64,000 nucleotides of DNA. Source: Agarophyton chilense. Lineage: Eukaryota; Rhodophyta; Florideophyceae; Gracilariales; Gracilariaceae. The number at the start of each line of letters is the position of its first letter. Positions within the stretch are counted from its first letter, which is position 1. This document shows positions 1-57,989 of this stretch, piece by piece. The stretch is taken from contig JARGXX010000003.1 of NCBI GenBank assembly GCA_030374765.1, positions 1,575,962-1,639,961 on the forward strand, given 5' to 3'. Below the pieces are notes generated by a model, which did no database searches, was not told the DNA's origin, and was given only the letters and a program-made list of their open reading frames with translations. The position numbers and the translations under genes were made by a program.

Positions 1-1174
1 TCTCATCCATCGCTAAGGTATTGCCGCGGAGCCTACCCTGCAGCAAGTAGTATGCTTGTACTTTAAGGTAAAACTGAAATTGCCACATAGCAGCGCCCTC
101 GGAAAAACAATTTTGGTCACATGCAATCTTGAACTTCTGTAGAAACTCAATCACCGCAATAGGATCTGTACCTGTGAAGGTTGTGTCACCCATTTGGAAG
201 CTGAGCTTCTTGTGGTGTTTATTAATATTCTGAGCGACCTCTTGGGTGTATTCAGAAGACTTGTTGATCAACCGATAAGTCCTGTAATCAACCGCTTTGG
301 TGAACATATCGTTCAACGGTTGGTGCACCTCCAGGTCCATTTCGGTCTCCGACTCCGAGTCGGGCGACTCATTGTATCGCTTTTTACCCTTTCGGTTCTT
401 TTTCGACGACCTCTTCGTCGACCTGTTCGGTTTCTTCTTCTTCTTATCTTTACGGTCATCATCCGACGATGAACTCGTATCGGAACTAGGGTCTGACGAG
501 TCGGGGTCTGAATCATCCTCTCGATTCTTTCCACTCTTCGTCCTCCGCTTCTTCCCTTTTCGGTTTCTTCGTCGCTCATCCAATGAGTCAGACGAATCGT
601 CCTTGGGACCACCTCCATGGGTATCCTTTTGGACGAAACCAGTAATTGGTGGCAGATAGATGTCTTCAGGATCTACCTTCCCCGGGACCTCTTGACTCTG
701 CCTTGGACCTTGTAGGTACTCACTATCAGTAGGTATGTGTTTAAAATGGGTGGAATGACCCATTTGGAACCCTTGTGGTATGCGCTTTGTAATGTTCACC
801 TGTGTAGGTCGGGATTCTGCGAATTCCTCGGAAACTCAAAGGTCCTTCACAGCGCGGTAAACATGCTCCCTAGAATCTGTAAAGAGATACTGTTTCACCA
901 TTTCAGTGATCCTGTCCGATAGCTCTTGAGCTGCTCGGTCAAGCACAATACGGGTATATGCATCGACGTCCATTGAAAGCAGAACCATCCAGGTATCCGA
1001 CTTCTCCTTTACGGTGAATGCATCCTCGCCTGCGAGGGTGACGAGCGCTTTCGATCGCTCTTCGAGCTGAGGCCATAGCTCATCCGCTGCAACCTCAATT
1101 GCTAATTCCCTTTGAGTTTCCGTTTCCATAGGCGGCGGACCATGTACCTTTACGTGAAGTGCAATGCCTTTCAA
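1..1174 (-). pseudogene. LTR-retrotransposon gag, one in-frame stop, truncated by window edge
   Basis: Read leftwards, one frame stays open from about 1174 to the window edge except for a single TGA at 836-838. The first ATG in the frame is at 1129-1127. The part before the stop is a mixed-charge region of about 100 residues. After it comes a Ser/Asp and Lys/Arg-rich linker (about 620-340), then a capsid-like stretch (about 340-1) containing FTGTDPIAVIEFLQKF and SEGAAMWQF, which resemble gag of Ty1/copia or Ty3 elements. Protease and pol would lie to the left, outside the window. The superfamily cannot be decided from gag alone. A single stop suggests recent decay or a sequence error. Confidence 0.6.
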
Positions 1175-1360
1175 GGGGGTTTCTTCCCAGGACTTAGAGA
1201 TTTCGCTCGCTTGAGGACTAGCTTGGTCTATGACAAGCTATACCGCTATTGCGTGCCGACGGCCGGTTAGGACCCGAGGTGCGTACTGGTGGAACACGTG
1301 GACTGCACGGATGCCGACGCTCGAGTGCGAGGCGTGCCACACGTGGCCCGGATTCTACCT

Positions 1361-2334
1361 AATGTTTAGTATTATTCAGTAATTTTCAGTATTTATTTAG
1401 CTACGCTATCGCTATTTACTGTCTATTTTTCGGGCGCGCGCCCACTGTCAGGGACCGCGCGCCACACTACTTAGGAGGTTGAGCACTGCTCCCCAGTAAA
1501 CACCCTCTTGGGAGATCCCAAGGAGGGAGTCTTGGCTCTGAACTTTTCGCCTTCGGCGCGTCTTCACCGCATACTGCGTTAGCGCCCGTTGCACGTTAGT
1601 TCATCCACCTTTCTGTCAACCAGAGTGCTACCGCCACCGTGGGTTCATATTTAATAGCCGACACTTGTCGTAGCCTCGCCCCTGTATAGGGTTTTGCCCC
1701 AGTTTTCCTCTTGTTCTCCTTTTTGGCTCTCGTGAGTGGGCGCCTCACTCACCTCGCTCGTCCACCTCATACGAGTGTTTCCTCGCTCCTTTTCCAACAA
1801 TCGCCGTGGTACCACTCCGCCTAGGATTGGTCACACCCCGGACTGTGCCGTGCTCGCCTAAACACTCTAGGTATATCCCGCCGGATTGGCCTCGGTCTTA
1901 CACCCTACTTCGTCGTGCCTTTTCAGAGTGGCTCTGTTTCTGTGCTCCGCTGGTACCCGTCTCCTCCGCCTGAGGCGTGTCTCTCAAGAGAGGAAGATCC
2001 CGAACATCTTCGTGGTGTCTCCGCTCCAAGCGTTGTCCTTCATTACGGTTTTGTCCCGAGGTTGCCAGAGCAGCTTCTCGGGGTTCTCCAAAATCGATTG
2101 AGCCGATGGGGCTCCTTTAAAACCTTTATGGCTTGGCGGGGCGCTTGCACCACGCGTATTCATTTTAGGTCGTGCCATTTGTGACCAATAGTGGTATCCT
2201 GTATTGCTTTGCGGTATTTCCTGAAACCAAATAGGTGTACGAGCCTCCAATCCTTCTCGGAATCTCGTGTGAACCGTGAAGGTACGACGAATCCTAAAAA
2301 AACTTTCTGAGTCGGGAGACCAAAATTTCGTACA
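1361..2334 (-). repeat. Putative LTR of the left-edge retrotransposon
   Basis: This ~970-bp non-coding stretch lies just upstream of the minus-strand gag. It begins TGTTTAG and ends CGTACA, so it has the TGT...ACA ends usual for LTRs. The partner LTR would lie outside the window and the primer-binding site next to it (about 1340-1360) is not recognisable, so the ends are a guess. Its right end overlaps the start of the 38.1-kb duplication. Confidence 0.3.
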
Positions 2335-9635: not shown

Positions 9636-10814
9636 TTATTGGTGCGTCGCAGGAGTAATTCCGTCGGATTCATTCGAGCCTGCAGGGTCGAAACCGGGAC
9701 TAGGGTCACCCGAGAAGCCTACTGTACCACTAGGACCGGCCCCGGCAAGCCGAGCACGCTTCTTCGGCGGAGACTCACCTGAAGAACTATTCCCACCATT
9801 GGAAGCCTCCCAGTAACTCAAACGTAGACCATACCGGGCATCCAAGTCAGTAGTAACCCTCTGGGACATCATCTTTTCATTCTGCTGCAGGATATTGACC
9901 ATAACGGTATTCAGATCCTGAGCCTGTTGGACAACCGCGGCGTAGCGCGCCAAGCGACGCGCCCAGGAGCAAGTTTTTCTTAGGACTGTCGCAATGTCCA
10001 TCGAGGCCGTTATGCCATTGGTACGGCAGACATGACGGAAATCCTCGGCTGCAGCCGTGACAGAAGCAGGAAAGTACGGCAACGGAGAGGACGGGGGGAT
10101 GTCGACGCCCCCAGTGGACGTTTTAAAAAGTGCCTTGCCTACAGGACTTTCGGCTTCGACAGTAACCTCGCCAGGAGGGATGTCCACTTGGGCGAAGGGC
10201 GGCTCATATGAGATTTCATCCTGAGGAGCAGCACCCGGAAGAGCTGGAGGAGGGGAGGCGGTCAGCAACACAACAGCGGACTCTACCGGAGGATTGACGC
10301 CCTCCATGGGTAGGACGAAGGGATCTTCACCAAATGATTCTACATCGGACATACCAGAAAGAACCAACGCTGTGGCTTCCACATCAGTCTCGAAGCACAG
10401 GGGGTCAAAACTAATGGGCTTCGGATACTATTCGGGCACATGACGCCTCGAAAGGTCGCCTGGATGATTCCTCAAAGGCTTGGCGCGATGGGCACGAGCG
10501 TCATTCCGAACCTGCGGATGCAGCGGAATCGGCGTGAATTAGTCGGCATCGTGGTCATAGCAAAGGAACCCGGGAGTCTTGCCCCACTCAACCTGTAAGA
10601 CATTATCCAAAAGGGCTTCGGCCTCCTCCACGTCGAACTGGGTCCCACGGACGATGTTTTGGATGCCCAGGTTCCTTAGGAATCGGACCATGATGTCAGG
10701 GAGCAGAATTAAACGACTTCGAATTCCGGGCATGTTCTCGTCCTTCCATACACTCCAATCCTCCGAACGTATATTACTACGGCCGCCGTATTTCGCGGTT
10801 TCCAGGAAAGCCAT
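9636..10814 (-). pseudogene. Unrecognised ~390-codon frame with two stops (unit 1)
   Basis: Starting at the ATG at 10814-10812, one minus-strand frame runs for 1.18 kb, broken only by a TAA at 10541-10539 and a TAG near 10440. The first 91 residues are a compact domain-like segment. The last ~250 residues are Pro/Ser-rich at first, then helical (ATVLRKTCSWARRLARYAAV), and end with a basic PPKKRARL motif that could be a nuclear-localisation signal. No family was recognised; a retroelement ORF1 or gag is plausible. The start codon overlaps the outer end of the foldback element's arm at 10813. Confidence 0.4.
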
Positions 10815-11258
10815 TGTAACGCAATGACGGGTGTGTCAGCGTACGGGTCTAGATCGGTGGTAGCGTGGTAGAGCGGTTCCTAAGGTTCGAATCCTTGACG
10901 GTCGCACTCCCAGAGTACTTGGTGCAATGGGATGGCGTTTACTGCGTAGTCCGAAAGGTTGGAGCTACGGAAACGATGGCTTGAAGACCAAATGTTGGAA
11001 GTAATATACCAAAGAGGGTTATTTAGTATCCTAACGGTGCCTACCGTACTCTAAGGGAGAAGCGTCACTCGAGCCAATTAAATAGTACTGGTGAGGCGCT
11101 GAGATCTCCCTGGCACTGGAATGCTAATCTATTACACAAATTAAAAAAAACTAATAATCTACATGAGTCCACCTGAGGTCAACCCGTCCACATGTCACCT
11201 GTAAGAGTCCTCAGGGCCTGTAGTCTTACAGGGCTCAACCGTTATCATCGCTCCTTCA
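10813..11258 (+). repeat. Left arm of the foldback element (unit 1)
   Basis: Inverted partner of 12607-13052. It begins ATTGTAACGCAATGA, contains the tRNA-like module at 10852-10903, and ends near the shared CCGTTATC...CGCTCCTTCA / TTGCTTCTTCA stretch. Confidence 0.75.
10852..10903 (+). other. tRNA-like module lacking an anticodon arm, in the left arm
   Basis: GATCG at 10852-10856 can pair with CGGTC at 10899-10903. Between them lie a D-arm-like TAGCGTGGTAGAGCGG (A-box-like) and a T-arm with stem AAGG/CCTT around TTCGAAT. The T-arm includes GGTTCGAATCC (10884-10894), a perfect match to the Pol III B-box. A and B boxes are only about 8 nt apart, so this is not a functional tRNA gene. The other arm (12962-13013, minus strand) keeps the same module. 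Confidence 0.45.
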
Positions 11259-12606: not shown

Positions 12607-13052
12607 ATGAAGAAGCAACGATAACGGCTAAGCCCTGTAAGCCGCCGGGCCCTAAGGACTCTTACAGGCGACATGTAGACCGGTCGACATCAGGTGGACT
12701 CATGTAGATTATTAATTTTTTTAATTAGTGTAATAGATTAGCATTACAGAGCCAGGGAGATCTCTGCACCTGGCCAGTACTATTAACTTGGCTCGAGTGA
12801 CGCTTCTCCCTTAGAGTACGGTAGGCACCGTTAGGACATTAAATAACCCCCTTTGCTATATTAGTTCCACCCTTTGGTCTTCAAGCCATCATTTCCGTAG
12901 CTCCAACCTTTGGGACTACGCAGTAAACGCCAGCCCAGTGCACCAAGTACTCTGGGAGTGCGACTGTCAAGGATTCGAACCTTAGGAACCGCTCTACCAC
13001 GCTACCACCGGTCGAGACCCGTGCGCTGATCCACCATTCATTGCGTTACAAT
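12607..13052 (-). repeat. Right arm of the foldback element (unit 1)
   Basis: Inverted partner of 10813-11258. Its outer end (CATTGCGTTACAAT, 13039-13052) directly abuts Ty3/gypsy reverse-transcriptase coding sequence that is open from 13053. Confidence 0.75.
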
Positions 13053-13415
13053 TCCCCGCTACTCGCACATTGCAGCTCCATTGAACGCATTGTTGCGTAA
13101 AGGACAGCCTGTTAAGCTCGAGGAATTCGGACCCAGGGAACACGAAGCCTTCAAGACTTTGAAGACAAAACTCGTCACAGCACCAATATGGGCATTGCCC
13201 AAACCCAACCTACCCTATTCTCTGGATACCGACTCCAGTGAGTATCAGGTAGGGTGTGCTCTTTTTTTCGGACCCATCCGGACGATCAGAGAAAACTTAT
13301 CGGTTCCTGGTCACGAACGTTGAAAGTTGCAGAGAAGAATTACTCCGTATCAGGAAAGGACTTCATTGCGGTAGTGTGGGCGCTGACTACTTTATGACCC
13401 TATCTCCAGCGTCTG
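13053..13415 (+). pseudogene. Ty3/gypsy pol, reverse-transcriptase end and RNase H start (unit 1)
   Basis: From 13053 the plus strand encodes the end of a Ty3/gypsy reverse transcriptase and the first part of RNase H (APLNALLRKG, EAFKTLKTKLVTAP, YSLDTDSSEYQVGCALFF, KDFIAVVWALTTL). A frame change occurs near 13320 and a TGA at 13395-13397. It stops abruptly at the 14-kb transposon and resumes in the same frame at 27419. Upstream domains are missing because the foldback element abuts at 13052. Confidence 0.8.
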
Positions 13416-13432
13416 TGTTCTCGGAATGCTAG
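13416..13432 (+). repeat. Left terminal inverted repeat, copy 1
   Basis: TGTTCTCGGAATGCTAG, a perfect inverted match to 27399-27415, preceded by the CTG target duplication. Confidence 0.95.
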
Positions 13433-13664
13433 ATAAGTGTACTAGATAGCTAGTTTTGTAAATAAAAAGCCAAAAAATCTAAGAATTTTGCAGATTGCAC
13501 TAGTTCGGCACCTGAAAAAAAAAATTTTTGGAAAAAATAACTCCATGCATCTTAGTGTTTTGACCACTTAATGCAGTTTAATCTGCATTTTCAGTTTACT
13601 GGTCACTTTTGACCGCTCTAGGTGGAGATCCATACCAAGGCAGTCGTCAGTAACTTCTACCTCC
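13433..13664. other. Left subterminal region of the 14-kb transposon
   Basis: Non-coding AT-rich sequence with CTAGATAGCTAGTTTT near 13440-13455, CACTAGTT near 13499, a TTTTGACCACT near 13557 and a small hairpin AATGCAG/CTGCATT (about 13569-13589). CTAGTTTT-type motifs recur at the right end (27113-27398), which suggests transposase-binding subterminal repeats. Confidence 0.5.
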
Positions 13665-13995
13665 TTACTGGCCCTTTTGCTTACTAGGCTCCAGCGTTCC
13701 ACCGGGAGGGTATTTGACGTTGAAAAAGTCCACCACCGCATTCTCAACCTCGTCCACCTCTCCACTGCTCAAGTTTCTCACACCCGGCTGCCCCACCACA
13801 CACACATTCCCACCCTTCTTCTCCACATCCTTACCAACCCTCCTCTTCTTCAGCCGACTCTCTCCAACTCCTCTTCCTTTCCATTCCTCTCTCCCCTTCT
13901 TCATCCCAGCCGGTTCCTCGCGTCTCCCTGGCGTCACCGGCGACCCTTTCGCTCTCCCCCTCTCCTCTCCCACCTCCTTCAGATACTCTGAAACA
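13665..13995 (-). CDS. Small basic protein or terminal exon, unknown function (copy 1)
   Basis: A minus-strand frame is open from after a TGA at about 13995 to a stop at 13667-13665, with no ATG near its start. It encodes a Lys/Arg/Gly/Glu-rich segment followed by a more globular tail (GVRNLSSGEVDEVENAVVDF) ending in a basic SKQKGQ. The upstream edge looks like a splice acceptor (TTGTTTCAG on the minus strand), so this may be the last exon of a gene whose earlier exons lie in 14084-14915. It keeps its frame in copy 2. No family was recognised. Confidence 0.35.
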
Positions 13996-14083
13996 ACTGT
14001 TCAAAGAGCGGTATCATATCGTTACCTATGTGCAGCGTACAAGGAAGACTAGCAAATTGGAACGCCTTTACTAAGATGTTCAG

Positions 14084-14915
14084 TTAGCAAACACTCTTCA
14101 CATCGACCTTAACGTTCACAATCACACTAACTACACTCTTCGGAGTTATAGACCCAGCTCTGCAATATACGCTTCCATTCAGATTCAACTCTCTCCTTCG
14201 GTTCATTCTCATAACGCTATTGAGGTGTTCTATCCAAAGCCTGCTACACATTCTCTTAATCGAAGGAGGCGTACAATGTATAAACGCGTTATACGGGTCT
14301 CTACAAACTACGCCGTTCAATCCAAACCAGCGATATACCTGGAAGAAACGAGCCTTTCTGGAATTCGGGGCTCTACTCCTTACTCTACTCATCCCCCTCA
14401 ACGCCATACTTTTCCTCGTTCACCGCTTCATTCCAGTCAGCGGTACCCTTTCATCAGACGTGAAGACAAATTGTATCGCCTTCTCCACAGGAGGGGCCGC
14501 AGTTGGCGCTTTGGCATATCTTCTCCAGCTTGTTTCTATATCCTTCTTTCCAGAGTCCTATCTTAACACAAAGTTCACAATGACCCTGGAACCACGGAGA
14601 ACCTCTTTTATGAACCTCGTGCTTGGCGCCCTCTCCCACTCTTTTCAACAGGCTTTATTCATATCCAGTCCGGCTGTAACCTTCCGACTACTCGGTATGA
14701 GGCTGTCGGCATGCACTTTCGCTGCACTCTCTTCAACCGCCTTTTCCACATCTTGCATTGAGGGCCCTGGTGTTCCTATACTGCTTGGTAACACAGTGGA
14801 TGTCGTAATCTTGATATCTTCGACAGTTGTCAATCACTATGAGAAAGTGAAAGCAAGTGCTGCTCTCACGCGTTTCAATCCAGTTGTTCAGGAGTTTCTA
14901 CTGAAAGACGACTGA
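14084..14915. other. Ambiguous coding region with overlapping frames (copy 1)
   Basis: A plus-strand frame of 231 codons (14220-14915) has several hydrophobic stretches that would be membrane segments (FGALLLTLLIPLNAILFLV, then GAAVGALAYLLQLVSISFF). It has no ATG in its first ~118 codons. On the opposite strand, 14407-14084 and 14833-14645 are open and look equally protein-like (VEKAVEESAAKVHADSLIP). Copy 2 keeps the plus-strand frame but gains a stop in the 14833-14645 frame. I cannot say which strand is coding; a spliced minus-strand gene ending at 13665 is a real alternative. Confidence 0.3.
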
Positions 14916-14996
14916 TCACTATTACAAGAAAAGGGGACTACTCCACATATTACCTCAAATTGTACTCTTTATTGTTCAATAGGTAACAGATAGTAT

Positions 14997-17422
14997 CTAG
15001 TCGTCGTCGTCATCCATTATCATACCGCCGTCTTCATAGTCTCCATCTGTGTTAGCCGAGTTGAGACCCATCCCAGGTTCATCATCCTCTTCTTCATACT
15101 CCTCTTCCCCAATTTTAACAACTTCCATTTTATAATCTTCATCCAACTCCTCATCCTCATCTACCTGGACGTCTTCATCATCACCCTTGTTGGAATCATC
15201 CTCTTCGAACTTAGGCCGAAATGCTGGTTGCCTATGCACTGCGTCTGGTAGCTTGTACCCATCCGGTACCAAGTACATGTGATACCTCATGCAAACTTCC
15301 TTAACCAATGCATCCTCGTATCCAGCTCCAGCATGAAACACATCTCCTCTTCCAATAAAAATGGAGTACGGCGGAATCCTGAACTTCCTCACTACCATCG
15401 TCCGAGACAGCCGCTTCAAGCTCCTGTCGTCGGGCACGTACATGTTATGTGACCTCTCACAAACCCAAAGGATGAACGAACTCGCTCCCGACGCCATCAT
15501 GAAGAACCCTGGAACCTCTTCGACGTTCTTCTCGGCATCGGTCAGTCCTCGAAAGTCCGTATGTAACACCTGCCTTGGACAGCCCTCCGCCGTACACAGC
15601 ACTCGCCCCCCTGTTTCAGGGGCATACATCTCTTCTTCCCCGACCGGTTGTTGCACAACCGAAGAGCGGCCGCAATCTGTCCAAACCTCGCATCCAACAA
15701 TGCCCTTTTCCTCATCATTAACACGTTGTTCTCGTCCCCCTCCACAGAATCCACAATCCCCACCTTCGTCGTAATGTACCGCCCAACTCCCCTCATTCTA
15801 TCTCCAGCGTCTCTCTCCTCACTAGCGTTGATTATAGGGTCCCATTTCTTTCTATTCCCTTCAATCGTCAAGTCCGGCTGGTTCAAGAAATCCGTCTGGA
15901 AGAACTCTAGCAAAGTCCCAGTCACATCCCCATCGAAGTTTACCCCCCTCTTCTTCGCCTCATCCGCCATCCCCTCGTCCGTGGCAAACTCTTCCAGCAC
16001 ACAAAATCCTTTCTCCATCAGCTCACTTCTCTTAGTCGCGAAGTACTCGCGGGCCAAGTCATCCCTCTCCATTGCTGCCATCCATACCGCCTGCTCTTCA
16101 TTCACAGGGTGGTCCTTCGTCGGTAGAATCACCCCAAGAACCGGTTCTTTCGTGGAACCCAGTTCCTTGTGCCTGTTATGAGCAGCACGCCAATAAACCG
16201 CATGGTGCACACTTTTCAAGTCTTCTACCCTCAAGCACTCCGCCCTGTGCTTGTTCCGTAGGTAAATCATCTGCATCCAGAGGTGCTGATGCTTCACTCC
16301 ATTTTCACCCGCCAGCCACTCGCTCGGAAGTGCATTCACCAAGTACACCCACGACATACCCGACCCCCCCACATACGGTCTCGCCCTCTTCAGCCCCTTC
16401 GGAACACCCTCCGGATTATTGTCTTCGAAGCCACGAATTTGCACACCTTCCTCCTCTTCGTCCCCTACAAATGCACCCTGCCCCCCGTCATCATCCAGTT
16501 CATCCTCACTCGATGAGAAAACATTGAGTACATGTTCCTCCAAGAAGCGCTTCAGCTCTTTCCTGCTCATCTTCTTGAACACATCCACAACGTCAGCCGG
16601 TATTTGAGCCGCAGATGTGCCCACCGTCTTTCCCCTCTTCCTCTTCCGCTTTAAAGGCTGTTCATACTCGCGTTCATCATCACTAATGACCACAGCCTTT
16701 CTCTTCCCCTTTCTCTGTCTAGGTTCCATCACTCTCTCACCCGCAGCATCCAGGCCGCGCTCAGTACCTTTTCTAGTTCGTGTGATGCGTCTGGGAACCA
16801 CGGTTTCCTGGTAGGGTACAGACTCCCCAGCACTAGACGAAGGAAGATTCACAGAAGGTGGCACCTCCACCACATCCTTCTCCGCACTTGGGGACGCCAG
16901 ACTCACTTTCAGACCGCCTTCAATCCGCCTTTGTGCGATTTTCATCTTCTTCGACACCAACCCCGGCCACCACCGCTTCGGACCAATGAGCTCCATCTTC
17001 GCCGTTTGCATGCAAAGGTACTCCCTTAAAGACACCTCGTTCTTTGCCATCACAATTGTGCTGTCTCGAACCTTCCCCGCCGTCAGACCCTTCTCCTTTC
17101 CCGCCCTTTCGCATATTTGGAACATTCCTATGGCGCATTGGAAGAACTGCGTTCGCGTCTCCTGGAAACGTCCCATATTCCCCGTAGAACCCATCCTCAC
17201 CCTCACATGTAGCTGCCACCCAGGTGTACACGGTGCATTCTGTCGGCAGACAGAGGTGCGCGAGAACTTCATCGGGACTCCCGATGAAGTCGAAGTGCTC
17301 CTCTGACGGGCGACAAAATGCAACCAGGATAGCTGCGAAGTCGTTCCGCAACAACTGTTCTTCCGTGCGCGCTCCTCAACCGTACTCACAATCTTTCCGT
17401 ACCCACCCGCACCCACCCGCAC
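14997..17422 (-). CDS. 2OG-Fe(II) dioxygenase-like protein with basic N-terminal half, frame break near 15600 (copy 1)
   Basis: Two overlapping minus-strand frames (17422-15542 and 15656-14997) make up one protein of about 800 residues. The C-terminal frame has the signature of a cupin-fold 2OG-Fe(II) oxygenase: RQVLHTDF (HxD at 15563-15555), 73 residues later PPYSIFIGRGDVFHAG (second His at 15335-15333), and Arg in CMRYHMYLVPDG (15287-15285) that would hold 2-oxoglutarate. An acidic tail follows, ending in five Asp. The N-terminal half has nuclear-type basic stretches (PLKRKRKRGK) and a conserved-looking helical segment before the break (RALLDARFGQIAAALR). Neither long frame starts with ATG, and a different frame looks coding at about 17354-17180, so an intron or second shift at the 5' end is likely. 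Known relatives include TET/JBP, AlkB and phytanoyl-CoA-type enzymes; the substrate is unknown. It is transcribed divergently from the methyltransferase. Confidence 0.6.
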
Positions 17423-17488
17423 CCGCTGCTCTCTTTCACTCAGGCTCTCGTGACGACCGCCCGTGAGGTTGTTTGAACACGTACATAA
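17423..17488. promoter_or_regulatory. Compact divergent gap between dioxygenase and methyltransferase genes
   Basis: Only 66 bp separate the methyltransferase ATG (17489) from the upstream limit of the dioxygenase frame, so a shared bidirectional promoter is likely. No TATA box is evident. A five-tract G-quadruplex-capable run (CCC tracts at 17402-17424, G-rich on the minus strand) sits at its edge. If the dioxygenase starts further in, the regulatory region is longer. Confidence 0.35.
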
Positions 17489-19846
17489 ATGGCTCCAGAA
17501 CCCACGAGAACTTCTTCATCGCCTGCGGCAGACACCTTCCAAATGGGTAAACTGTTTGGTACGGGGGATGAAGTTATCAGGGCGTGTCTGGATTTGCGTG
17601 ATCGTTACGCATCAACGAGGCGGAAGGAAGATGAGCCGCGAAAAGTGGGGCACACTGCATTCATCGATTTCGCAATTGCCAATCGCCACATCCTACCGGA
17701 GACCACGAAGTTTTTTTATACTCTCCTAGGTCCCGACCACACCAATTACACAGAAGATGAGCTCCGAGTTGTAGGAATGAGGGGCTCGAACTGTCAGAAT
17801 TATTTCTCGGCGAGGTTGCTGGATATAAGGGATGGGGACCTGGATAGGCGCGTGAGGGACTTTTGGAACGCGTACGAGGCGGTGGAGTTCAAGGACATCC
17901 CGAAGAATGTCACTTTGACAGAGTTCTTCAAAGGTCTGGATACAACCCGAAAGAAGGCGAGCAAAAGCCAGGCTCCATTCGCGACCGACTTTCCGACAAT
18001 GTTCCAGAGGTTGCTGTTCCTCATGTGTATTCAGTCGGTCTTTATGGAGAAGAGAAGAGTCTCCCGTAAGCAAAGAAAGCGGGACAGAACCTACGATACG
18101 CCATTTTCGAAGGTGGCGATTTATGACAAACCAGTAGCTCAGCGTGTGGGCTTTGGTGTGCAGCTCGTCAATAACGCGTTGGACAGCTTCACCCAGTATT
18201 TGGGATTCCCTGGCGTGGAATTCATGGTTTTGCCCTTTATCCATATACGATATTCTGATATGCAGTTCCAGGCAATCGGAAACAGAAGGGATGGGTTCTC
18301 TCACAAGGACATGGCCCAACGACTCCTTCCTGGTAAAAACCGTACTTTATTGGAGGAGAATGTCGTCCCATGGGCGTTGAACCTGCCGGAGTACGTTGAC
18401 ACTCCACTTCGTATGTTGGCCAAAGAGTTTCTCGCTGACTTGCACAAAGTGGTGGTGAATGAGCAGCTTTACTCTATATCAGCTCCGGAAAGATGGGACG
18501 TTCTAAAACCGTTTACATACACTTTGCCTAGAGTGTTTGCGGAGAGATTCGACTGCTTCTCGAACTCTCTTATCTCTACCATCTCGGAATACATATCGCC
18601 ACTAAAGCTGCGAGGGAGTGTGGAGGTGGAAGTGGTGGCTGCAACAAAGGCGGAACCTACTATGGTTATGGAAGAAGACGAGATAGAAGTTATACCCCCT
18701 GAGAAAGATTCGGAGGCTCCGGCGGTGGAGGGTGGAGAGGGAGTGGAGGGTGGGACCGGGAATGAGGAAGAGAACATGGCTGTTGGACAGCATTCGTCCA
18801 CAGCTGGACCAAGGTCGGTCGAATCTGAGTCGGTGGATATTCTGCCGCCTCACGACCTTACTTCTCTGGATGATATAATGTCTCTCCAAAAGTGGGAGTC
18901 GGAGATGGAAAAGCACTGTCGAATGCACAATTGTACTTTCGAGAACCTGGTGGAGATTGACGAGACATTGCGCAGCAATGGGGTCTCTCCGATAGGGAAA
19001 GTGCAGTTGGTTCTCATGGACCCGCCGTATAATATACGTGCGAAGAAGTACAGGAAAAACAGCTGGTACGACGTTCTTAACTGGCAAGACATGGTAAAGA
19101 CGGCGAAGCTCATCTCTAAACTTCTGCGTCCGGGAGGGCATTTCGTTATATTCTGCGCGATTGGCCAGGTGAACGAATGGAAAGAAGTGTTGGGTCGAAT
19201 TGGTGCAAAGGATGAGAATGGACAGAAGAGCAGGTCGTTTGTCGTGGACAAGGTCCAGCTGCACTTCATTCGCTCTCAAGGCAATCCGATGCGTAATCCC
19301 GGACGTAGTTCGTGCTCCCTGTTTCCCAGAACAGAGTACGCCATTCATGGAGTTCGCAGCGGGTTTTCCTACGCCGAACAACATGGCATGGTGAACTATG
19401 AGAACTTCAGCTATGTACCATCGCGATATCCGGGTTACGATAGCGTGATTGACCAAGTGCCTCCCATGTCGAATGGTGAAACACTTCTATGGAGAAGGAA
19501 TAATGCCAAAGGAGCAGTTACGTATCAGAATGTGCGGGCGGAACAGAAGTCACGCGCTTTGCTGAAGGAGCTCATCAGCAGGTTTTCTCAGCCGGGAGAC
19601 ATAGTGGTGGACCTCTTCGCCGGAACATTTTCAACGGCCATGGCATGCATGGAAATGGAAAAGCACCGTCAGTTTCTAGGGTGTGAGCCAGATCCGCAGT
19701 GCTTTGCTCATGCAAAGCACGCCGCTACAGTGAAATTTGCGTCATGCATGCGAAACAACGAGACGGACATTCATATAACGCAGGATGTTCGGAACGCTGT
19801 GACTCGAGTGACATGCTTGTTTCCGGACGTCGTCATAAAGCGTTAG
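17489..19846 (+). CDS. DNA adenine/cytosine-N4 methyltransferase, beta-class motif order, 785 aa (copy 1)
   Basis: The ATG at 17489 (context ACATAAATGG) opens a 785-residue frame ending in TAG. Residues 1 to about 490 have no recognised domain and end in an acidic Glu/Gly-rich linker (about 400-460). The C-terminal ~290 residues are an S-adenosylmethionine-dependent amino-methyltransferase. The catalytic motif MDPPYN (DPPY at 511-514) is followed by LRPGGHFVIFCAIGQ, a variable presumed target-recognition part, and the cofactor motif VVDLFAGTFSTAMACMEMEK (Asp at 708), with a GCEPDPQC strand after it. Motif IV before motif I is the beta-class order of N6-adenine/N4-cytosine DNA methyltransferases. 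All key residues are present. Target (6mA or 4mC) and site are unknown. The SET protein follows 39 bp later in the same frame. Confidence 0.85.
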   Translation: MAPEPTRTSSSPAADTFQMGKLFGTGDEVIRACLDLRDRYASTRRKEDEPRKVGHTAFIDFAIANRHILPETTKFFYTLLGPDHTNYTEDELRVVGMRGSNCQNYFSARLLDIRDGDLDRRVRDFWNAYEAVEFKDIPKNVTLTEFFKGLDTTRKKASKSQAPFATDFPTMFQRLLFLMCIQSVFMEKRRVSRKQRKRDRTYDTPFSKVAIYDKPVAQRVGFGVQLVNNALDSFTQYLGFPGVEFMVLPFIHIRYSDMQFQAIGNRRDGFSHKDMAQRLLPGKNRTLLEENVVPWALNLPEYVDTPLRMLAKEFLADLHKVVVNEQLYSISAPERWDVLKPFTYTLPRVFAERFDCFSNSLISTISEYISPLKLRGSVEVEVVAATKAEPTMVMEEDEIEVIPPEKDSEAPAVEGGEGVEGGTGNEEENMAVGQHSSTAGPRSVESESVDILPPHDLTSLDDIMSLQKWESEMEKHCRMHNCTFENLVEIDETLRSNGVSPIGKVQLVLMDPPYNIRAKKYRKNSWYDVLNWQDMVKTAKLISKLLRPGGHFVIFCAIGQVNEWKEVLGRIGAKDENGQKSRSFVVDKVQLHFIRSQGNPMRNPGRSSCSLFPRTEYAIHGVRSGFSYAEQHGMVNYENFSYVPSRYPGYDSVIDQVPPMSNGETLLWRRNNAKGAVTYQNVRAEQKSRALLKELISRFSQPGDIVVDLFAGTFSTAMACMEMEKHRQFLGCEPDPQCFAHAKHAATVKFASCMRNNETDIHITQDVRNAVTRVTCLFPDVVIKR

Positions 19847-19885
19847 AAGTCCTGGAAAACACCTACCGGATTTCCCGAGCATCAG

Positions 19886-20599
19886 ATGTTTCCACCCCAT
19901 ATCGTGGATTTTCTCTCCTCCAGGTGGCAGGATAAGAATATATCGGAGATTGGGCGACGGCAGGCGCTGTATGAGTGGCCAAGAAGTTTTCAAGGAAAGA
20001 TGTCACTGTTGGATTGGAATGCTAATCTGGCAGTGGAGGCGACATTATGTGGTTGTCGGATTGCAAATGCTGGAGTTGGTGTGCACACAAGACGCCGGGT
20101 GATACAAGGTGAGACTGTTTGTTACTTTTACGGGACTTTGGTGTACCATGATCTTTCAAAGCGGAAGGAAGTTCATAAGGCATACGGAGGGGGGCTATTG
20201 AAAGCGACTGATGATCGTTTTCGGCAGTACGCGATGGAGATAAGCGTCCGAGGGGAAGTGTTTCACAAGCCACCAGGAAGAATTAGTGGGGTGTCTCTTA
20301 TTCCGGTGTGGATTGTCCCTGCTCCATTTTGCTTGGGGGGAACAATTAACGATCCCAAGTATGTGGAAGGGGATAGGGACAGGGATGCGGTTGAAGACGG
20401 GTTAATGAGACGCCGAACTGCAAATGTTCGGGTCATCAGAACTCTGGGGACGGGGCGGACCCCATTTCAGTTGAGAGACTATAGATTGCTTTCTGTGCAA
20501 GCAATTCGAGATATAGAAATAAGAGAGGAGCTGTTCAAGGATTATGGGACAGAGTATATCTGGAGTATGAATAACACGCCAGTCATAGTAATCGATTAA
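19886..20599 (+). CDS. SET-domain methyltransferase-like protein, 237 aa (copy 1)
   Basis: The frame begins at ATG 19886 and ends in TAA. SET-domain features occur in order: GVGVHTRRRVIQGETVCYFYG (residues 63-83, the first SET strand pair with GxG), a divergent pseudoknot part with GGTINDPKY (151-159) and NVRVI (180-184) in place of NHSCxPN...V, and EELFKDYGTEY (214-224), the usual ELxxDYG with the catalytic-type Tyr. SET enzymes methylate lysines of histones or other proteins. There are no pre-SET or post-SET cysteine clusters. It lies in the same frame as the methyltransferase with only one TAG between, so it may be translated as a fusion. The protein is identical in copy 2. Confidence 0.75.
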   Translation: MFPPHIVDFLSSRWQDKNISEIGRRQALYEWPRSFQGKMSLLDWNANLAVEATLCGCRIANAGVGVHTRRRVIQGETVCYFYGTLVYHDLSKRKEVHKAYGGGLLKATDDRFRQYAMEISVRGEVFHKPPGRISGVSLIPVWIVPAPFCLGGTINDPKYVEGDRDRDAVEDGLMRRRTANVRVIRTLGTGRTPFQLRDYRLLSVQAIRDIEIREELFKDYGTEYIWSMNNTPVIVID

Positions 20600-20923
20600 A
20601 AGTGCATCGCTTTTGTTACTTTAATTCATTGTATTGTACCAGATATTGTGGGCTTTTACTATGTTTGTCGCTACATATGACGTCAAAGCGTGACGTAGTA
20701 CATATGCTAAAGGAAAGTCATGTACACCGAAGGAGAATACTTTTCCAATATCTGGTGCGTTCTAGCGCATATTTAAAATATCTGAAAAGTTTGGGGGTTT
20801 TCTGAGAACACGAAAAGGGTGGAGGTATATTTTTGGAAGCAGAATGTTTCGAATCTTTTCTCCCATCCATCGCATTGCAACGCGTGGAAAACCATACCAC
20901 GATCGCTCTCTCTCTCTTCAACC
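20600..20923. promoter_or_regulatory. Intergenic region ahead of the coiled-coil gene
   Basis: About 320 bp of AT-richer DNA with TGACGTCAAAGCGTGACGT (about 20678-20696), two TGACGT half-sites resembling CRE/ATF sites, and GCGCATATTTAAAATATC near 20765, a TATA-like stretch. A promoter for the gene starting at 20924 is plausible. Confidence 0.3.
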
Positions 20924-23557
20924 ATGGCTCCGAAGCGCAAATCGAGAAGTGAGAACACTAGCGGGCGCGGTACAAAATCACGGCGGCATGGAGGGGATGC
21001 GGAGGGCGGAAGGGACAAGGGGCGTAGGCTCCAGGGCGCGAGTGGAGAGAAGGGAAGCGTGCGCTTGAGAGGTAGATCAAGGCAAGATTGTGGCGAAGGA
21101 GAGGCGAGTAGGGGCAAAGGAAAGGCTGTTCGCGCAAAGGAGACGGTGACGGAGGAGAGTTCGGAGCAAATCACGTCGCGTACGGGAGAGATGGTGCGGA
21201 GCGGCGATGGAAAACGGGATGGCGTGCGAAGCAACCGCACGCGTGTACTTAGAAGTGGATTGCGGGGGAGGGTGAGCAGAGCTCCAGGAAGGACAAGGAG
21301 AGGGGATGCATCCGAGCGGACTCTAAGTGCTGTACTCACGTCTTCAGCTGATGTGGAGCCGGTAAATCCATGCTCTGCACCTGAAGGAGGTGAAGAGATT
21401 CCGAATGAGAGGACGAAGGGGCGTAAGGAGGGAGAGAGAATGTTTGGAGAACGTGGATCCCGCCTCAGAGGCGTTGAAGAAGCAGGGGCATCGTTTACGG
21501 GTATGAGGGAAGAGGACGGTGATGATGAGATACAGAAAGGGAGAATAGAGAGTAGCCGTAGTGGGGAGGTTAGAATAGGTGGACCCAGTAGTGGTCTAAT
21601 CGCGGGCGCAAGAGTCGTTCGAGAGAGAACAGAAGGAGAGAGTGTTGGAGTTACCGCGGGGGAACAGGCGGAAAGATGGGAGGGGGCGAACTTGGATTAC
21701 GTGGAAGAAAGGAGAGAGCGTGCAAGGGAAAGAATTGGGAGTGTTCGAGTTACAGGAAGAAGAGCGATAGACGAAAGGGAAGGCAGAGAAGTGCATGTGA
21801 GTGAGGGGGGGAGAATGGGGTTTGCTGGAGGAAGAACACGTGGTTCAGGGGAGGAAGGCGATGGAAGAGTACCAGTTCTTTCTCATCAGAGAGAAGATGT
21901 CGAGCGTTTGCCACCGAGGAGAGGGGTGGGTTTGAGAGTTGAAGGGTTTGAGGTGAACGCAAGGCGAAGGACGTCGGAATGTATGCGAGTAAAGAGAAAC
22001 ATTGTATTCACAAGGAATAATGATAACGGGGAGAATGCGAATTTAAATGTCGAGGAGAACGCCGTCCGTATAGTGGAAGATGAAGCAAATGATGATGAAA
22101 TAGGTTTGTTGCCGCGGTCGATGCTAATTGAGAACATGAATGTGTTGAAGGGACAAATGGGACGTATGAAAGAAGACAGCTACAGTGTGATGGTAAGTTT
22201 GAAAATGACCCAAACGGAGCTGTATCGGGCGAGGGAGGAAATGAAGCAGCAGAATGTGCTGATTGAGAGTTTTAGGGAGGCGTTGAAAGGTAGAATCGCT
22301 GGGGAAGAGAGGGGGGAGGGAGGCGTGACGCGGCGACGAAAGTATGACATTGGAGTGCAGGAATGCTTTTATGGATTTGCACGTCGTGTGTATGATAGGA
22401 TTCTTCATTATGCAAAACTGGAGGCATCGGAACTTTGCTTCGACACCGAGAATGTGGGTCGAAGCTGGATGAATAGAAGTGAGGCGGTTGGGGAGAGTAG
22501 GGAGGAAAGTTTGTTTGTGATGGGAGAGAAGGAAATGGTTCCGAGATGTCCAATTGAGGTTGCATATGAGATGAGACCGTATACGCCGTCGACAGAGGGC
22601 GGGAGCCATTCGTTGTTGAAGCACGTGGTAGAGACTGAGTTAATGGGAGAGAAATGAGAGTCGATAAGGGAAGCGGGGAGGAGAGAGGAGTGCGTGGAAA
22701 ATGTAAGTGCGGATAGGTTCTTGAGACAGAGAATGAAGCACACATTGAGCGATGTGGTTGGGGTGCGGAAGCGAGCAGCGCGTGATAAGCTGTTTTCCAT
22801 GCTTGGATATGATTTGATCGCGAAACGAGCTAAGGTGACTGAAGGGACGGAGCTTTGGGCGGGGTTGAAGAAGCAGATTGAGGAGGAGCAGGAGAAGTTG
22901 ATGGGGTCGGGGGAGGATGGGAGAGGTAAGCTGTATGCGTGGAAAACGAGTGCGATTGATGATATTACTTATTCTGGATCGAAGGTGTCTGAGAACTTGC
23001 AGGACTTTGGTGAGGCAGATATGTATTTTCGAACTCAGGTGTCGTTGAAAGTGTTGGAGGAGTTTATGGGCTACGCGGTAGAGAGTCACAGAAATGGAGA
23101 AAGGCAGTATGTGGATGGGACGGTGATGCATCTTGCGCGACTTGATGCATGGATTGGATGTGTGGTGACCACGATGGATAGAGACGTTGGGCGGGGAGGC
23201 CAAAGCCAACTTTTGTTCTCGACGCTGTTTGGGAGGTTTCTGCCACTGGCTGTTGAGGACATATTGAGGGTTGCCTGGAACATGGTGAAGGATGAGTATG
23301 CTGAGGAGTTTGAGAATGATGGATTCTGTGGAGGGAATCGTAGAGATGTGAGTGGGAATAAGGAGAGAATCGCGACGGTTGGGCTATGGATACCGTCGAG
23401 AGAGAAAATCTATCTGGCGATAAGGGAGGAGTTTTTCATGGAGAATCTCACGAGAAGACTTGGAGCGGTGTTAGATTGCTATATAGCGTCATGTGGACCA
23501 GAAGAACCACGGTTCAAGCGCTTAGCGTTGGGGAGTAGGCAAGGAGTGGGAGAGTGA
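20924..23557 (+). pseudogene. Large basic coiled-coil protein, interrupted by one TGA (copy 1)
   Basis: The ATG at 20924 lies in an excellent context (CAACCATGG). The frame would give about 877 residues but has TGA at 22655-22657, where copy 2 has TGG (Trp). Residues 1 to about 370 are extremely rich in Arg, Gly, Glu and Ser, likely disordered and nucleic-acid binding. A probable coiled coil follows (GQMGRMKEDSYSVMVSLKMT and on, about 410-450). The C-terminal ~400 residues are globular with no recognised family. It follows the SET gene on the same strand. It could be an accessory DNA-binding subunit of the transposase, as TNPA-like proteins are in CACTA elements; that is inference. Confidence 0.65.
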
Positions 23558-23644
23558 TAAGGTACGGGGGAATAAGGGGGTAAGGAGGTGGAGCAAGATG
23601 GGGGTCGGCTATGGAAGAAAAGCAGCGGTGACTATTTTATTGGA
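23558..23644. other. Convergent gap between coiled-coil gene and transposase
   Basis: Only 87 bp separate the two converging stops. A G-rich run (GGGGGAATAAGGGGG) includes AATAA, a possible polyadenylation signal for the plus-strand gene. Confidence 0.3.
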
Positions 23645-26600
23645 TCATGTGCCTTGGGAGGTATTATTATGGGTGCCACCCAGTGGTGGTGTTGTGCCAC
23701 CAGTGGTGGTGTTGGAGAAGTAGGGCTTGGCAGTTGGGTCTCGGTAGAATCTGTTGAGGTAAAATCGATGGAAGCGCCAGTGCAATCGAGGGGTGAAGGG
23801 GGGTGCGGGGTAGTTTTGGCGAAGTACATGAACGGGGCCGAGAATGGAAGAGGATGGTACGAGGCCGAACCAGGGGGAGACGTTGTCGGAGTTGGAAGTG
23901 TTTGAGATAGGAAGGGGGTGGGCGGTGTGGTTTTGTTCGTCGTCTGTTGCCCATCGGAGGCAGATGCAATTGAGAGAGACATCGACTTGATCCTGGGGTG
24001 GAACGAGTTCGAGGAACTGAACGAAGGCGAACTCGTTATGAGTGGAAGGGGAAGAAGGGGTGGTGAAGCGAAGAAGAGAGTTGAGCTTGCAGACCCAGGC
24101 GGTGGGAGTGGGGTTGGAGAAGCTGGAACCGGCAACGAGGATGTGGGAGAACTTTGGGGTTTTAGAGGGACCGAAGGAGGGAGCAGCGAAGATACGTTGA
24201 ATGAGTGGGAGAGGGGGATCTTTGACGGCGAGCTCGTTTCGATCGGCGATGTAGTCGTCTAGGGTTGGGGTGAAGCCGCCGACGACGTATGCGGAATTGA
24301 CGAATGTGAGACGGGTTTGGCGGAGAGTGGGGGAGTCCTGGTTGAGAGCTAGTGTTTCGAGTGTGAGTGTGACGAAGGAGGGGAGTGCGAGGGTTCCAAT
24401 CTGTGAGATGATGGCGATAGTGTCTGGGGAGAAGAGGTCCTGAAGGGAAGAGATTGTTGAGTGGGGGTTTGCTCGAAGGAATTTGTGAGCGGTGATGAGA
24501 TCGGAAAAGGAGGTGTGCTTGCCATCACGGACGAAACCTGGTTTGCGGGCTTGGAAGGGAGGAGGAGGGGCATGGGAGGATGAGGTGACGGAAGGATCAG
24601 CGGAGAGAGAAATCCAATTGTTGACGGCATCGGAGCGTTCGATGGCACGGATGGTTTCGTTGTGCGCGGTGGGTCTGCGCTTGGAGGTTCGGGAGTAATG
24701 TGCTTTGAAGAGGGTATGGGCTTGTTCGAAGATGCCTGCATCGTTGAAGTGGAGACCCCCAAAGCGTCGAATGTCGTCTACGATGTGATCGAGGAGGTGG
24801 AATTTGAGGGTGCCAAGGTTGGAGGTATGGTATGGACCGAGAACATCGACAGCTCTGTGCTTGAAGGAATGGATTTGGGAGGCGAGTTTGGCAAGACGAG
24901 AAGTGGTCCATTCGGGGACGGAGTTGTAGCACATGGAGGTGAGGAGGAGGTCTGTGTACTTGGAGAAGACGGTTGTGATGGGAGCGGAATTGGCTTCGTC
25001 ACAGCAGCGGTCGAAGAAGGCGCCGATGAAGGGGAAGACCATGTCGAGGGCGCGGTAGTCTTTTGCTTCTAGCATGCCGCGGACGCCGTCAGTTGTGAAG
25101 AAGACGTTGAGGGACTGCCCGCTTTCGGAAGTAGAGAAGTCGATGTGGAGGCCGGTAGCTGGGGAATGATTTTCGATGGTGGTAAGGATGAAGTTGGAGT
25201 GCTTGAGGATGGAGGTGCGGACGGAGTGGAAGGAACGGCGGGAGTTTGTGGAGCTGATGGTGGTGAAGAGGTGTTCTGATCTGAGACGTTCGATGGCGGC
25301 GAGCTTGATGAGTTTGGAAACGCCGAGGTGGAAGTTGTGGAGGGGTTCGAAGGGGAAGATGTTGTATGGGGTGAGGAGGAGAGTGATGTTGAAAAGGGGG
25401 TAAGACTCGAAGAGGGAGGGGTATTTTGCGAGGGAGAGGGAGTGGAGTGCTTGGAGAGCTTGTTCCTTGAAGTTGCGCGAGACTCTTGGCTTGCGGGCGA
25501 GGAGAGCTGCTTCGGAGTCCTTGAGGAGGGAGAAGTGTTTGTTGGGGGCTGCAAGGGTGAGGGGAAGAGATCGAGGGGGATGGGCGTGAGAGTGTTGGTG
25601 GAGCTGTGAGCGAGGGACAGAGCATCTGTAGCAGGGCTGCTGGGGGCGGGTGCCGTGGGAGATGGCGAGAATATCCTTTGCCTCGGGAATGTCTGCGCAG
25701 TAGCTGGCGATGATGGGGTGGCATTGACGAAAAACGCCGTCGGCGTCGCGGAAGGGGAAACCGGGGAGGGCGGAAGAGAAGAGAGGTTGAAGGAGGGAGG
25801 AGATGGTCTGCTGTATGAGTTCCATTTTTGTTTGGCGGGGGATGGAGGAGGAATGAGTGATGATATCTGCATCTGGAGAAGGAGTGATTGGGGTGAAGGA
25901 GGTGGGAAGATAGCCGAGAAGTGTGAGATTGTCGGAGATGCAATTGCGGCGAAAGGAGTCGGAGAAGTTGAGAAGGGTGATGTGGAGGGGGTAAAAGGTG
26001 ATGGAAGAAGATTTGAGAGAGGTAGAGGACTTGTCGGAGTAGATTTGGACGAGGCCGATGAAGGAGTCGATACCGGAGGAGTGAGGGAGATGCCAGACGA
26101 TGTTATCTTTTGTGGACTGCATGATGGCGGTCTTGAGTGCGGGGACGACTTTTGAGCCGAGGGTGGCTGCCATGGGGTGTGCGAAGGCGGGGGAGCCGGA
26201 GGCGGATGTTTGGGAGATGGGGTGGAAAAAGGTGTTCTTGAAGTGTGCGAAGGCGAGCTGTTGTTTGAGGACATAAATTGCGTCTTTCTGGAAGAGGGTT
26301 GCGGAGAAGCGTTTGTGGGGATCGAAGATGGTGGAGGGGGCGAAACCAATGGACCTGATTCTCTGGTGGAAGAGGTCTGCCTGGAGCTCGAGGCATTGCT
26401 TTGCGGAGGAGACTGAGTTCCGGAATGTTGATTCGGAGAAGTGGGGATCATTAAGGAGAGTGATGATTTCGTCAGCCTTTCGTTGTCCAAGCTTGGAGGC
26501 GATGGAGGAGATGTAGAGGACCATTTTCTCCAGGTGGGGGTTGTCGAGGGGGGGAGTGGAAGGAGGGAGGGGGGAGAGAGCGAGAGAGGAGGGGGAACCG

Positions 26601-26907
26601 AGAGGGGCAGTGGCGACGTGGATGGCGTCCTGGGTGTGGAGGGAGAGAGGGAGCTGGTCTTGGAGGTAGGAGTCATGGTGTGCAAGAGGGACGTTGTGGG
26701 AAGGGCGATGTGAGGGAGGAGGATGAGGGGGGAGTTGTGAGGTGGACTTGTGGCGTTTTGTGCGGGGGGGAAGTTGGGTTACTTTCCGCCAGGGGAGAAG
26801 AAGCGCTTGTTGGCGGAGAGGCGATGAGGGCACCTTCTCTGGTGCCGCTGGAGGGCGGGGATTTCTCGGGCGAAGAAGGAGCAACCGTTGAAGCAGCAGG
26901 AAGGCAT
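23645..26907 (-). CDS. Plavaka/TNP2-like (CACTA superfamily) transposase with N-terminal C2H2-type finger (copy 1)
   Basis: The main minus-strand frame is open for over 1,100 codons (27112-23645) with no stop. From an ATG at 26907 a short exon-like frame encodes a zinc finger (CCFNGCSFFAREIPALQRHQ then RRCPH, 26895-26821) before a stop at 26779. A splice at about 26785 (minus-strand AAAGTAACC) or a frameshift would join it to the main frame. Main-frame motifs include CYRCSVPRS (about 25630), PYNIFPFEPLHNFHLGVSK (about 25370-25310), matching the DxLH...H.G block, and KFHLLDHIVDDIRRFGG with IFEQAHTLFKAHYSRTSKR (about 24805-24700), matching the K.H..xH...I..FG...E..H...Y..T.KR block of Plavaka/TNP2 proteins. 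It would cut and paste the 14-kb element. Catalytic acidic residues are not assigned. Confidence 0.65.
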
Positions 26908-27112
26908 GGTGGGTGGAGGAGAGGTGGTGGGAAAGAAGTTGGTGGGGGGCGTAGACGGAGAGAGAGTATGGCGCACACAGGGCACGTGACAGGGGAGGCC
27001 GGTGGAGAATAATATAGACTGCAAGGCACGTGAGGTCTGCCAGGTCGGGCTGCGATTCTATTGCGATTGATATGGATGGTACTAAATGTTCAATTTCTAT
27101 TTTGAGGTCCAT

Positions 27113-27398
27113 TTTGGGACCGGTTTTTTGTACTAATCTGTCAATCTAGAGCGCACAAAGATTGAATCTGCTCCTGCACCACTTTTCTACTTTTACCTTT
27201 AAACTGCGGCGACAGAAAGATTCACGCTAGTTTTACCTCCATCAAAACTAGAAAAACTGCAGATATGTGCTAGTTTTCCTTCCCATACAAACTAGCACTA
27301 ATGAACGAATGAAAATATTTTCGGAAATAAACACCTCCAAATTTGGATAAATTCACGGGTTTTCGGTCATTTCAATTCGTCCTTTTTTGACCACTGAA
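27113..27398. other. Right subterminal region of the 14-kb transposon
   Basis: Non-coding, AT-rich, with four CTAGTTT/AAACTAG motifs: near 27228, 27247, 27268 and 27290, in both orientations. It also has TTTTGACCACT near 27386, which also occurs near 13557 at the left end. It contains the promoter side of the minus-strand transposase. Confidence 0.5.
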
Positions 27399-27415
27399 CT
27401 AGCATTCCGAGAACA
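27399..27415 (-). repeat. Right terminal inverted repeat, copy 1
   Basis: CTAGCATTCCGAGAACA, the exact reverse complement of 13416-13432, followed by the second CTG. Confidence 0.95.
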
Positions 27416-28857
27416 CTGACGCAGGGAGAAACACTTACCATCCATACGGATCAATCGTCCCTACGATGGTCATTATCACTAACAGACCTCTCCGGGAGGT
27501 CAACACGTTGGCGCTTACGCCTGTCTGATTTCGATTTCGAAGTTAAATATAAGAAGGGACTGGCTAATATACAGGCCGACGCTTTCTAGCGATTGGAAGC
27601 TTTAGGGGAAACCCAAGGAGAAATCGATGACGATTTGCCGTGTTTTTCAATGGAGATGAATAACGATGAAACGCAACTTGAAGATCAAGAAGATGAAGTG
27701 GATTACTCCCAATTGGACCCTCTAATGCTAACCCATGGAACTGAACCTCCTGATCAACTTGAGCGTTCCTCGATCACGGAGCTCTGCAATGAGAAACTAA
27801 CGGAGAACTTCTGTACAGCGATACGCTCCCGTCTTAACGGGGGGGGGGAGGATTTGCCCTTTTCGCTCAGTGGGCGAAGCTATCTGGACACCCAGGAGGA
27901 ACAAAGTTGTTTATAACCCTAAGAAAAGGGACTTCTATTGGCCAACGTTGGCAATGGACTGCCATGCTATGGTGAAGCTATTCAGAACGTGCTCGATGAA
28001 TCGCGTGAAACTCTTTAAGAAGATGAAAAATACGACCCTATTCCCGGCGAAGGCGCCTCTACAATTGGTCAGTATCGACATACTTGGAGAGCTAATTCGT
28101 TCCTATCAATTATATCGCTACCTATTGGTAATTACGGATCGATTCGCAAAACTTGTACGGACTGTAACGTTGAAGAAGATACCCGCCTCGGTAATAGCTG
28201 AGGCTTTCATAAAACACTGGTTGTATGTGTACGGGCCTCCGGAAGTTCTGCTATCAGATAATGGAAAACAGTTTGTCGCTAAGTTCTTTCAGAAAGAACT
28301 TTGCCAAACGTGTGCGATGAATCGCGTCAAGCTCTTTAAGAAGAGGAAAAAGATGACCCTTTTCCCGGCGAAGGCGCCTCTACAATTGGTCAGCATCGAC
28401 ATACTTGGAGAGCTAGTTCGTTCCAATCAAGGATATCGCTACCTATTGGTAATAACGGATCGATTCTCAAAACTTGTACGGACTGTACCGTTGAAGAACA
28501 TAACCGCCGCGGTAGTAGCTCAGGCTTTCCTCAAACACTGGGTGTATGTGTACGGACCGCCGGAAGTTCTGCTATCAGATAATGGAAAGCAGTTTCTTGT
28601 TAAGCTCTTTCAGAGCGTTTGCCGAATAATGGGCATCAAGAACGTGTTCACCACGACTTACCACCAACAGTGTAATGGTCAGGTGGAACGCTACAACCGT
28701 ATGTTATTAGCCGCTCTTCGGCATTACATCGCGGATCACCCGAAAGAGTTGGACATGTACGCAGACACACTTTGTTATCTGTTATGCGTACAACACGCAT
28801 GTGCATACGTCTACAAAGGCGGCTCCTTTTCAGCTCGTGATATCACGTAGCTAGATG
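27416..28857 (+). pseudogene. Ty3/gypsy pol, RNase H end and integrase (continuation of 13053-13415)
   Basis: The RNase H frame resumes at 27419 (GETLTIHTDQSSLRWSLSLT, RWRLRLSDFDFEVKYKKG) and reaches a TAG at 27587-27589. An acidic linker then leads to a frame change in a G-run at about 27839-27848. After it come RRDFYWPTLA-like integrase N-terminal sequence (here KKRDFYWPTLA) and the catalytic core. Core residues appear as SIDILGEL, LLSDNGKQF and NGQVERYN. The first two blocks occur twice because of an internal 321-bp duplication. A frame shift near 28800 leads to STKAAPFQLVIS, the usual end of the core. The integrase C-terminus and chromodomain are absent. Confidence 0.8.
27995..28636 (+). 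repeat. In-frame 321-bp tandem duplication of the integrase core
   Basis: Unit 1 (27995-28315) and unit 2 (28316-28636) both start GATGAATCGCGT and are 107 codons each. They are roughly 85-90% identical by eye. The frame is kept across the junction. Each unit carries the two catalytic Asp blocks; only unit 2 continues to the Glu block. Confidence 0.85.
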
Positions 28858-57950: not shown

Positions 57951-57989
57951 AAGTCCTGGAAAACACCTACCGGATTTCCCGAGCATCAG

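Follow-up and report, generated by a model that had tools for sequence, protein, structure and literature searches.

Predicted DNA methyltransferase-SET fusion and ParB-like, dioxygenase-like genes on a Plavaka-related transposon of Agarophyton chilense

Here, we report a Plavaka-related DNA transposon of Agarophyton chilense whose intact copies carry two divergent cargo genes, one for a protein that joins a putative DNA amino-methyltransferase to a SET domain and one for a protein with a ParB-like and a dioxygenase-like region. Two copies lie in the window (the whole 64,000-nucleotide stretch analysed; GenBank assembly GCA_030374765.1, contig JARGXX010000003.1, positions 1,575,962 to 1,639,961), and a second family of the gene pair occurs mostly near contig ends. 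The genes are linked to the transposon in most copies counted. Our preferred reading, in which belief and doubt are about evenly balanced, is a selfish epigenetic cassette that would write and erase marks on DNA and protein, carried on the transposon and, separately, in a contig-end cluster. An initial annotation of positions 14997 to 20599, made from the sequence letters, had described three distinct enzymes side by side as transposon cargo; intact copies show two genes, with methyltransferase and SET forming one protein, and both window copies are broken. The main features of the first window copy (copy A) were as follows.

17489-20599 (+): DNA amino-methyltransferase-SET gene, single frame interrupted by TAG after residue 785 (profile matches and comparison with intact copies)
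14997-17215 (-): broken ParB-dioxygenase gene, residues 509-1247 in two frames, 15605-17215 and 15000-15641 (tblastn with P0010, and frames)
23645-27112 (-): Plavaka transposase open reading frame (ORF) (PF18759; E value, 2.8e-22)
13410-27421 (unstranded): Plavaka-related transposon copy A, internally deleted (BLAST against other copies, termini, six-copy alignment and flanking bases)

Intact fusion copies elsewhere in the genome are 1,043 amino acids long; in the window, this one reading frame is divided by the single in-frame TAG. N6_N4_Mtase (PF01555) matched the ORF at 17489-19846(+) with 68.5 bits (cut-off, 26.7), and the annotated DPPY (residues 511-514) and cofactor motif (708) were both located, so that motif IV precedes motif I, the beta-class order. 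The methyltransferase fold was recovered on a predicted model; among the structural matches listed, the best by Z score were adenine enzymes, with bdelloid N4CMT (19.5) and PvuII (18.7) also matching. The enzyme is probably a beta-class DNA amino-methyltransferase, which would probably make N6-methyladenine (6mA) and possibly N4-methylcytosine (4mC). A first protein search using words from the N-terminal 500 residues returned nothing; region searches then gave relatives, and 25 database proteins match the fusion. Catalytic residues were invariant across 27 proteins that are 27-49% identical to the first. In PHROGs, the top match of the methyltransferase was phrog_67, and in viral contigs the fusion profile found at least 61 loci, all matching the methyltransferase region only.

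The annotated SET domain (PF00856) stands on the intact copies: it scored 23.4 and 25.9 bits in two intact relatives, over the cut-off of 22.4, and 18.6 bits, under it, in the window ORF 19886-20599(+) alone. In the 27 proteins, the canonical SET motif (N-H-S/x-C) was not found, N-D standing in its place, and the C-terminal Tyr was retained in 24 of them. The 50 structural matches listed for the model included no SET structures, which says nothing against a SET fold. Sequence profiles thus support the domain, and the SET half may be a lysine methyltransferase.

The divergent gene has an intact open frame of 1,247 residues, with a ParB-like N-terminal fold and an HxD...H...R dioxygenase-like C-terminal region. 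The window copies carry a frameshift and, because of a loss of ~2.5 kb at 17216-17234, lack residues 1-508, the part with the ParB-like domain. The HxD, distal His and Arg of the annotation were located on the minus strand (14997-15656), and H1060, D1062, H1136 and R1152 were invariant in four of four aligned long proteins, the farthest 28% identical over the region. The double-stranded beta-helix expected for them was not obtained from a poor stretch of the model (model residues 631-941; predicted local distance difference test scores of ~23-46 across the block). Out of the three folds predicted by the annotation, one (methyltransferase) was modelled and one (SET) was supported through profiles. 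Hmmscans of the proteins gave no Tet_JBP (PF12851) match. We regard the C-terminal region as 2-oxoglutarate-Fe(II) dioxygenase-like, with a putative oxygenase activity. The ParB/sulfiredoxin fold of the N-terminal domain was recovered on a predicted model, and Pfam ParB_N gave no match at E values up to 10 (A5 members) or up to 1 (P0017, P0018); by its modelled fold, this domain could load or slide on DNA. Searches with the dioxygenase gave no loci in viral contigs (profile) or prokaryote genomes and nothing credible in PDB profile searches or PHROGs, and V-ATPase-like structural matches were rejected as chance matches of helical bundles. Dioxygenase relics elsewhere in the genome (L093-L097; 42-48% identity) had internal stops in three of the five translated, and some genomic relics have lost motif residues.

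Linkage was counted from 123 SET matches, of which 63 transposon-family (both window copies included) and 34 second-family matches were used and 26 fragments, relics or second pieces left out; from 129 dioxygenase matches (61 and 17 used, 51 left out); and from all 123 Plavaka candidates scored, out of 235. Among the 63 transposon-family fusions, 52 had a divergent dioxygenase gene 3-9.5 kb upstream of the SET match, 56 had a convergent Plavaka transposase gene downstream, and 47 had both. Conversely, 61 of the 123 scored Plavaka matches had a transposon-family module within 15 kb. Divergent transcription, stated in the initial annotation, and conservation of the gene set among related elements, which it put forward as a test, are thus seen in most copies, with 11 (dioxygenase) and 7 (transposase) exceptions. 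The remaining features of the transposon in the window were as follows.

13410-13432 (+): 5' terminal inverted repeat of copy A (termini comparison)
27399-27421 (-): 3' terminal inverted repeat of copy A, 22/23 bases equal to the 5' repeat (termini comparison)
13407-13409 and 27422-27424 (unstranded): probable target duplication CAG of copy A (flanking bases)
51515-64000 (unstranded): copy B of the same element, truncated by the contig end (shares the TAG stop and both deletions of copy A)
55593-58703 (+): methyltransferase-SET gene of copy B, same TAG (sequence match)
20786-23557 (+): broken copy of the P0015 protein gene, a 923-residue frame (only a below-cut-off Pfam match)
1360-1361 (unstranded): counterpart of the insertion site of the copy on contig C10, element-free in the window (flank match)

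Four copies besides those of the window were compared, the one on C117 partly. The complete element is ~18.8 kb long (C10 copy), and its flanks match window positions 1155-2042 minus the element, an empty site with the target duplication TA. Target duplications are 2-3 bp (TA at C10, C86 and C2; CAG at the window copy), and the inverted repeats of the window copy are 23 bp with one mismatch. Relative to the other copies, copy A has lost ~2.3 kb at 13981 besides the loss at 17216-17234. Six aligned copies, two of them partial, were 97.5-99.5% identical. The P0015 protein gene is placed between the fusion gene and the transposase gene, and the transposase profile PF18759 scored 79.8 bits in the window and 80.4 in another copy (cut-off, 26.3). 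The element ends in CGTCTGTG..CACTGACG; CAC or CACTA ends were not found at its termini, and the CACTA-type identity given by the annotation was rejected. Its termini match neither PlavakaA (TGT..ACA) nor PlavakaB (CATCA..TGATG) as given in the available text of PMC12730594, and the element is therefore named Plavaka-related. Many copies exist in the genome and many carry stops; C-to-T changes are common among them with no strong single context, and hypermutation of the repeat-induced point mutation kind was rejected as a main signal. Changes between near-identical copies were too few for dN/dS.

The window reaches the end of its contig (C3; genome of 79.8 Mb in 135 contigs). Positions 2324-25907 recur at 40428-64000 (99.15% identity over 23.6 kb), and the window holds two element copies because a 38.1-kb unit is duplicated head-to-tail up to the contig end. 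Another element adjoins the transposon, with 446-bp inverted repeats (10813-11258 and 12608-13052; 90% identical) around a 266-amino-acid ORF, and related sequence (80-84%) also lies beside the C86 transposon copy. Farther on, a ~308-bp stretch within an integrase-core ORF is duplicated 321 bp apart (27986-28614; 90%).

The second family of the pair is 36-42% identical to the transposon family (34 SET matches at 38-42% identity), and its fusion frame at C95 is 1,141 residues long. Exact 15-mers of the transposon inverted repeats were not found in the five loci checked. Out of the 34 matches, 27 lie less than 70 kb from the end of contigs longer than 150 kb, every one of them reading inward (12/12 at starts, 15/15 at ends); one is interior (C4, 1.10 Mb), four are on small contigs and two are on contigs whose length was not checked. 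Telomere-like CCCCTAAA repeats open C95 and three of 20 contig starts and were absent at five others. From C95 inward, the order is telomere-like repeat, ~773-bp repeats, dioxygenase, further ~773-bp repeats, methyltransferase-SET and RecQ-like helicase. At C96, the helicase adjoining the module has a full frame of 1,880 residues with an OrsD match (L013:2574-8216). We take it to resemble fungal telomere-linked helicases, and the middle of its frame looks to us, by eye, like a tyrosine recombinase. Among side observations, the telomere-like repeat at L010:1-2119 is irregular (CCCCTAAA/CCCCTAAAA with CGCCCTAAA variants), the ~773-bp repeats flanking the end-family dioxygenase (L010:2132-3192; C95:8181-11419) are possibly shared promoters or satellites, and the start of C10 (1-20000) holds a ~12-kb unit of fusion gene and downstream ORF, head-to-tail at 99.9% identity.

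We infer, in part, that these copies sit at chromosome ends. Their position, common orientation, telomere-like repeats and C95 gene order could mean that the pair primarily belongs to an end cluster with the helicase, where it would act on subtelomeric chromatin or the upkeep of chromosome ends, and that capture went from this cluster to the transposon or the other way round. We think this unlikely: spread by recombination between chromosome ends would orient the copies alike even if they had no function there, only three contig starts (C95, C76 and C68) showed both telomere-like repeats and a copy, the helicase is known from C95/C96, and a dioxygenase was matched in only 14 of the 34 rows (partly because contigs end early), while the transposon family counts more rows and encodes a transposase of its own. 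Retention of the pair in two diverged families, together with catalytic residues that stay invariant at 27-49% identity, also makes it very improbable that these are ordinary passenger genes with no epigenetic role, as the broken window copies and the stops in many genomic copies might otherwise be read.

Gene content suggests that the host is a red alga and not a fungus. Matches in the host genome included phycobilisome linker (PBS_linker_poly, 13), light-harvesting (nine) and chaperonin genes (16, of which nine cover the domain in one stop-free frame), and there was no match to Chitin_synth_2 (controls, prokaryotes); with the light-harvesting and linker genes present, a fungal host was rejected. 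C5-methylase (PF00145) had no match in the host genome, with the control matching in 10 of 14 genomes, and TET/JBP (PF12851) had none where no control genome matched either. MT-A70 also gave no match, in a search that had no positive control, and we draw nothing from it. In another red seaweed, Gracilariopsis chorda, DNA methylation of ~8%, mostly non-CG, is given in the available text of a review (PMC8566409).

Under the preferred reading of a write-and-erase cassette, the fusion protein would place an amino-methyl mark on DNA and, probably, a mark on chromatin protein at the same place. The ParB-like domain may load onto or slide along DNA, carrying the oxygenase, and the dioxygenase-like region may oxidise the methyl mark, removing or converting it; we hypothesise that it erases the element's own marks. 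Together, the two proteins would set the state of the element DNA and reset it, leaving it expressible and out of reach of host silencing. A fuller version, which we hold tentatively and with less confidence than the general one, joins a bifunctional methylase of DNA (6mA or 4mC) and chromatin protein to a ParB-type clamp-oxygenase of phage ParB-methyltransferase origin, in a host without C5-methylase, shared by transposon and chromosome ends.

Two other outcomes of the same chemistry were weighed. The fusion could silence copies of its own element or of competitors through the marks that it writes, which would keep copy number down and reduce harm to the host; many copies coexist, and bdelloid N4CMT deposits 4mC on transposons, SETDB1 being its proposed partner (PMC8885841, available text), but this would not explain why a putative oxygenase is so often paired with the fusion, and we rate self-restraint or rival suppression as rather improbable. 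Less probable still is hypermodification instead of erasure, in which the oxygenase would turn the methyl group into a new modified base, as in phages (PMC12730594, available text). A phage-like methyltransferase with a ParB precedent and the absent C5-methylase match are in its favour, but the element ORFs tested showed no recognisable glycosyltransferase or transferase of another kind.

If active, a DNA methyltransferase and a SET domain on a single polypeptide would directly couple two marking layers, and an oxygenase bearing a ParB-like domain would offer a novel means of spreading an eraser along chromatin. Any 6mA or 4mC found on the elements would be a good candidate for their own product, because the host has no C5-methylase match and no TET/JBP match (the latter in a search where no control matched). 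What 6mA and 4mC do in eukaryotes, a matter of dispute, could then be tested more directly, and the contig-end copies suggest a possible tie between mobile elements and chromosome ends.

TET-carrying transposons of fungi were reportedly described by Iyer in 2014. In agreement with the novelty supposed by the initial annotation, we found no description of a methyltransferase-SET and dioxygenase combination on a transposon in the open-licence literature searched. The nearest system is that of fungal Plavaka elements with TET/JBP, among the TET-carrying Plavaka, EnSpm and KDZ transposons whose dioxygenase cargo is proposed to counter DNA methylation (Kojima 2025, PMC12730594). Going by the available text of that paper, these share with our element a Plavaka-type transposase and dioxygenase cargo; here, however, the dioxygenase gave no match to Tet_JBP and bears a ParB-like domain, it is joined on the element by a methyltransferase-SET fusion, the termini are CGTC..GACG, and the host is apparently a red alga. 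The same text cites HarbingerS and MuDR elements, which are also DNA transposons that encode SET methyltransferases, but with other transposases and no mention there of fusion to a DNA methyltransferase. In the 'Plavaka giant repeats' of Amoebidium (PMC11244446), the cargo is tyrosine recombinases, whose genes match red algae or dinoflagellates, and 'SET domain' is absent from the available text. The nearest enzyme capture is bdelloid N4CMT, in which a eukaryote has likewise taken up an N6_N4 methyltransferase of bacterial type and combined it with a chromatin domain; as far as the available text of PMC8885841 goes, that domain is a chromodomain reader and not SET, the gene is captured rather than transposon cargo, and no partner dioxygenase is described. 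Phage ParB-methyltransferase proteins hold ParB_N and N6_N4_Mtase within one protein, whereas here the ParB-like domain is on an oxygenase-like protein encoded beside the methyltransferase.
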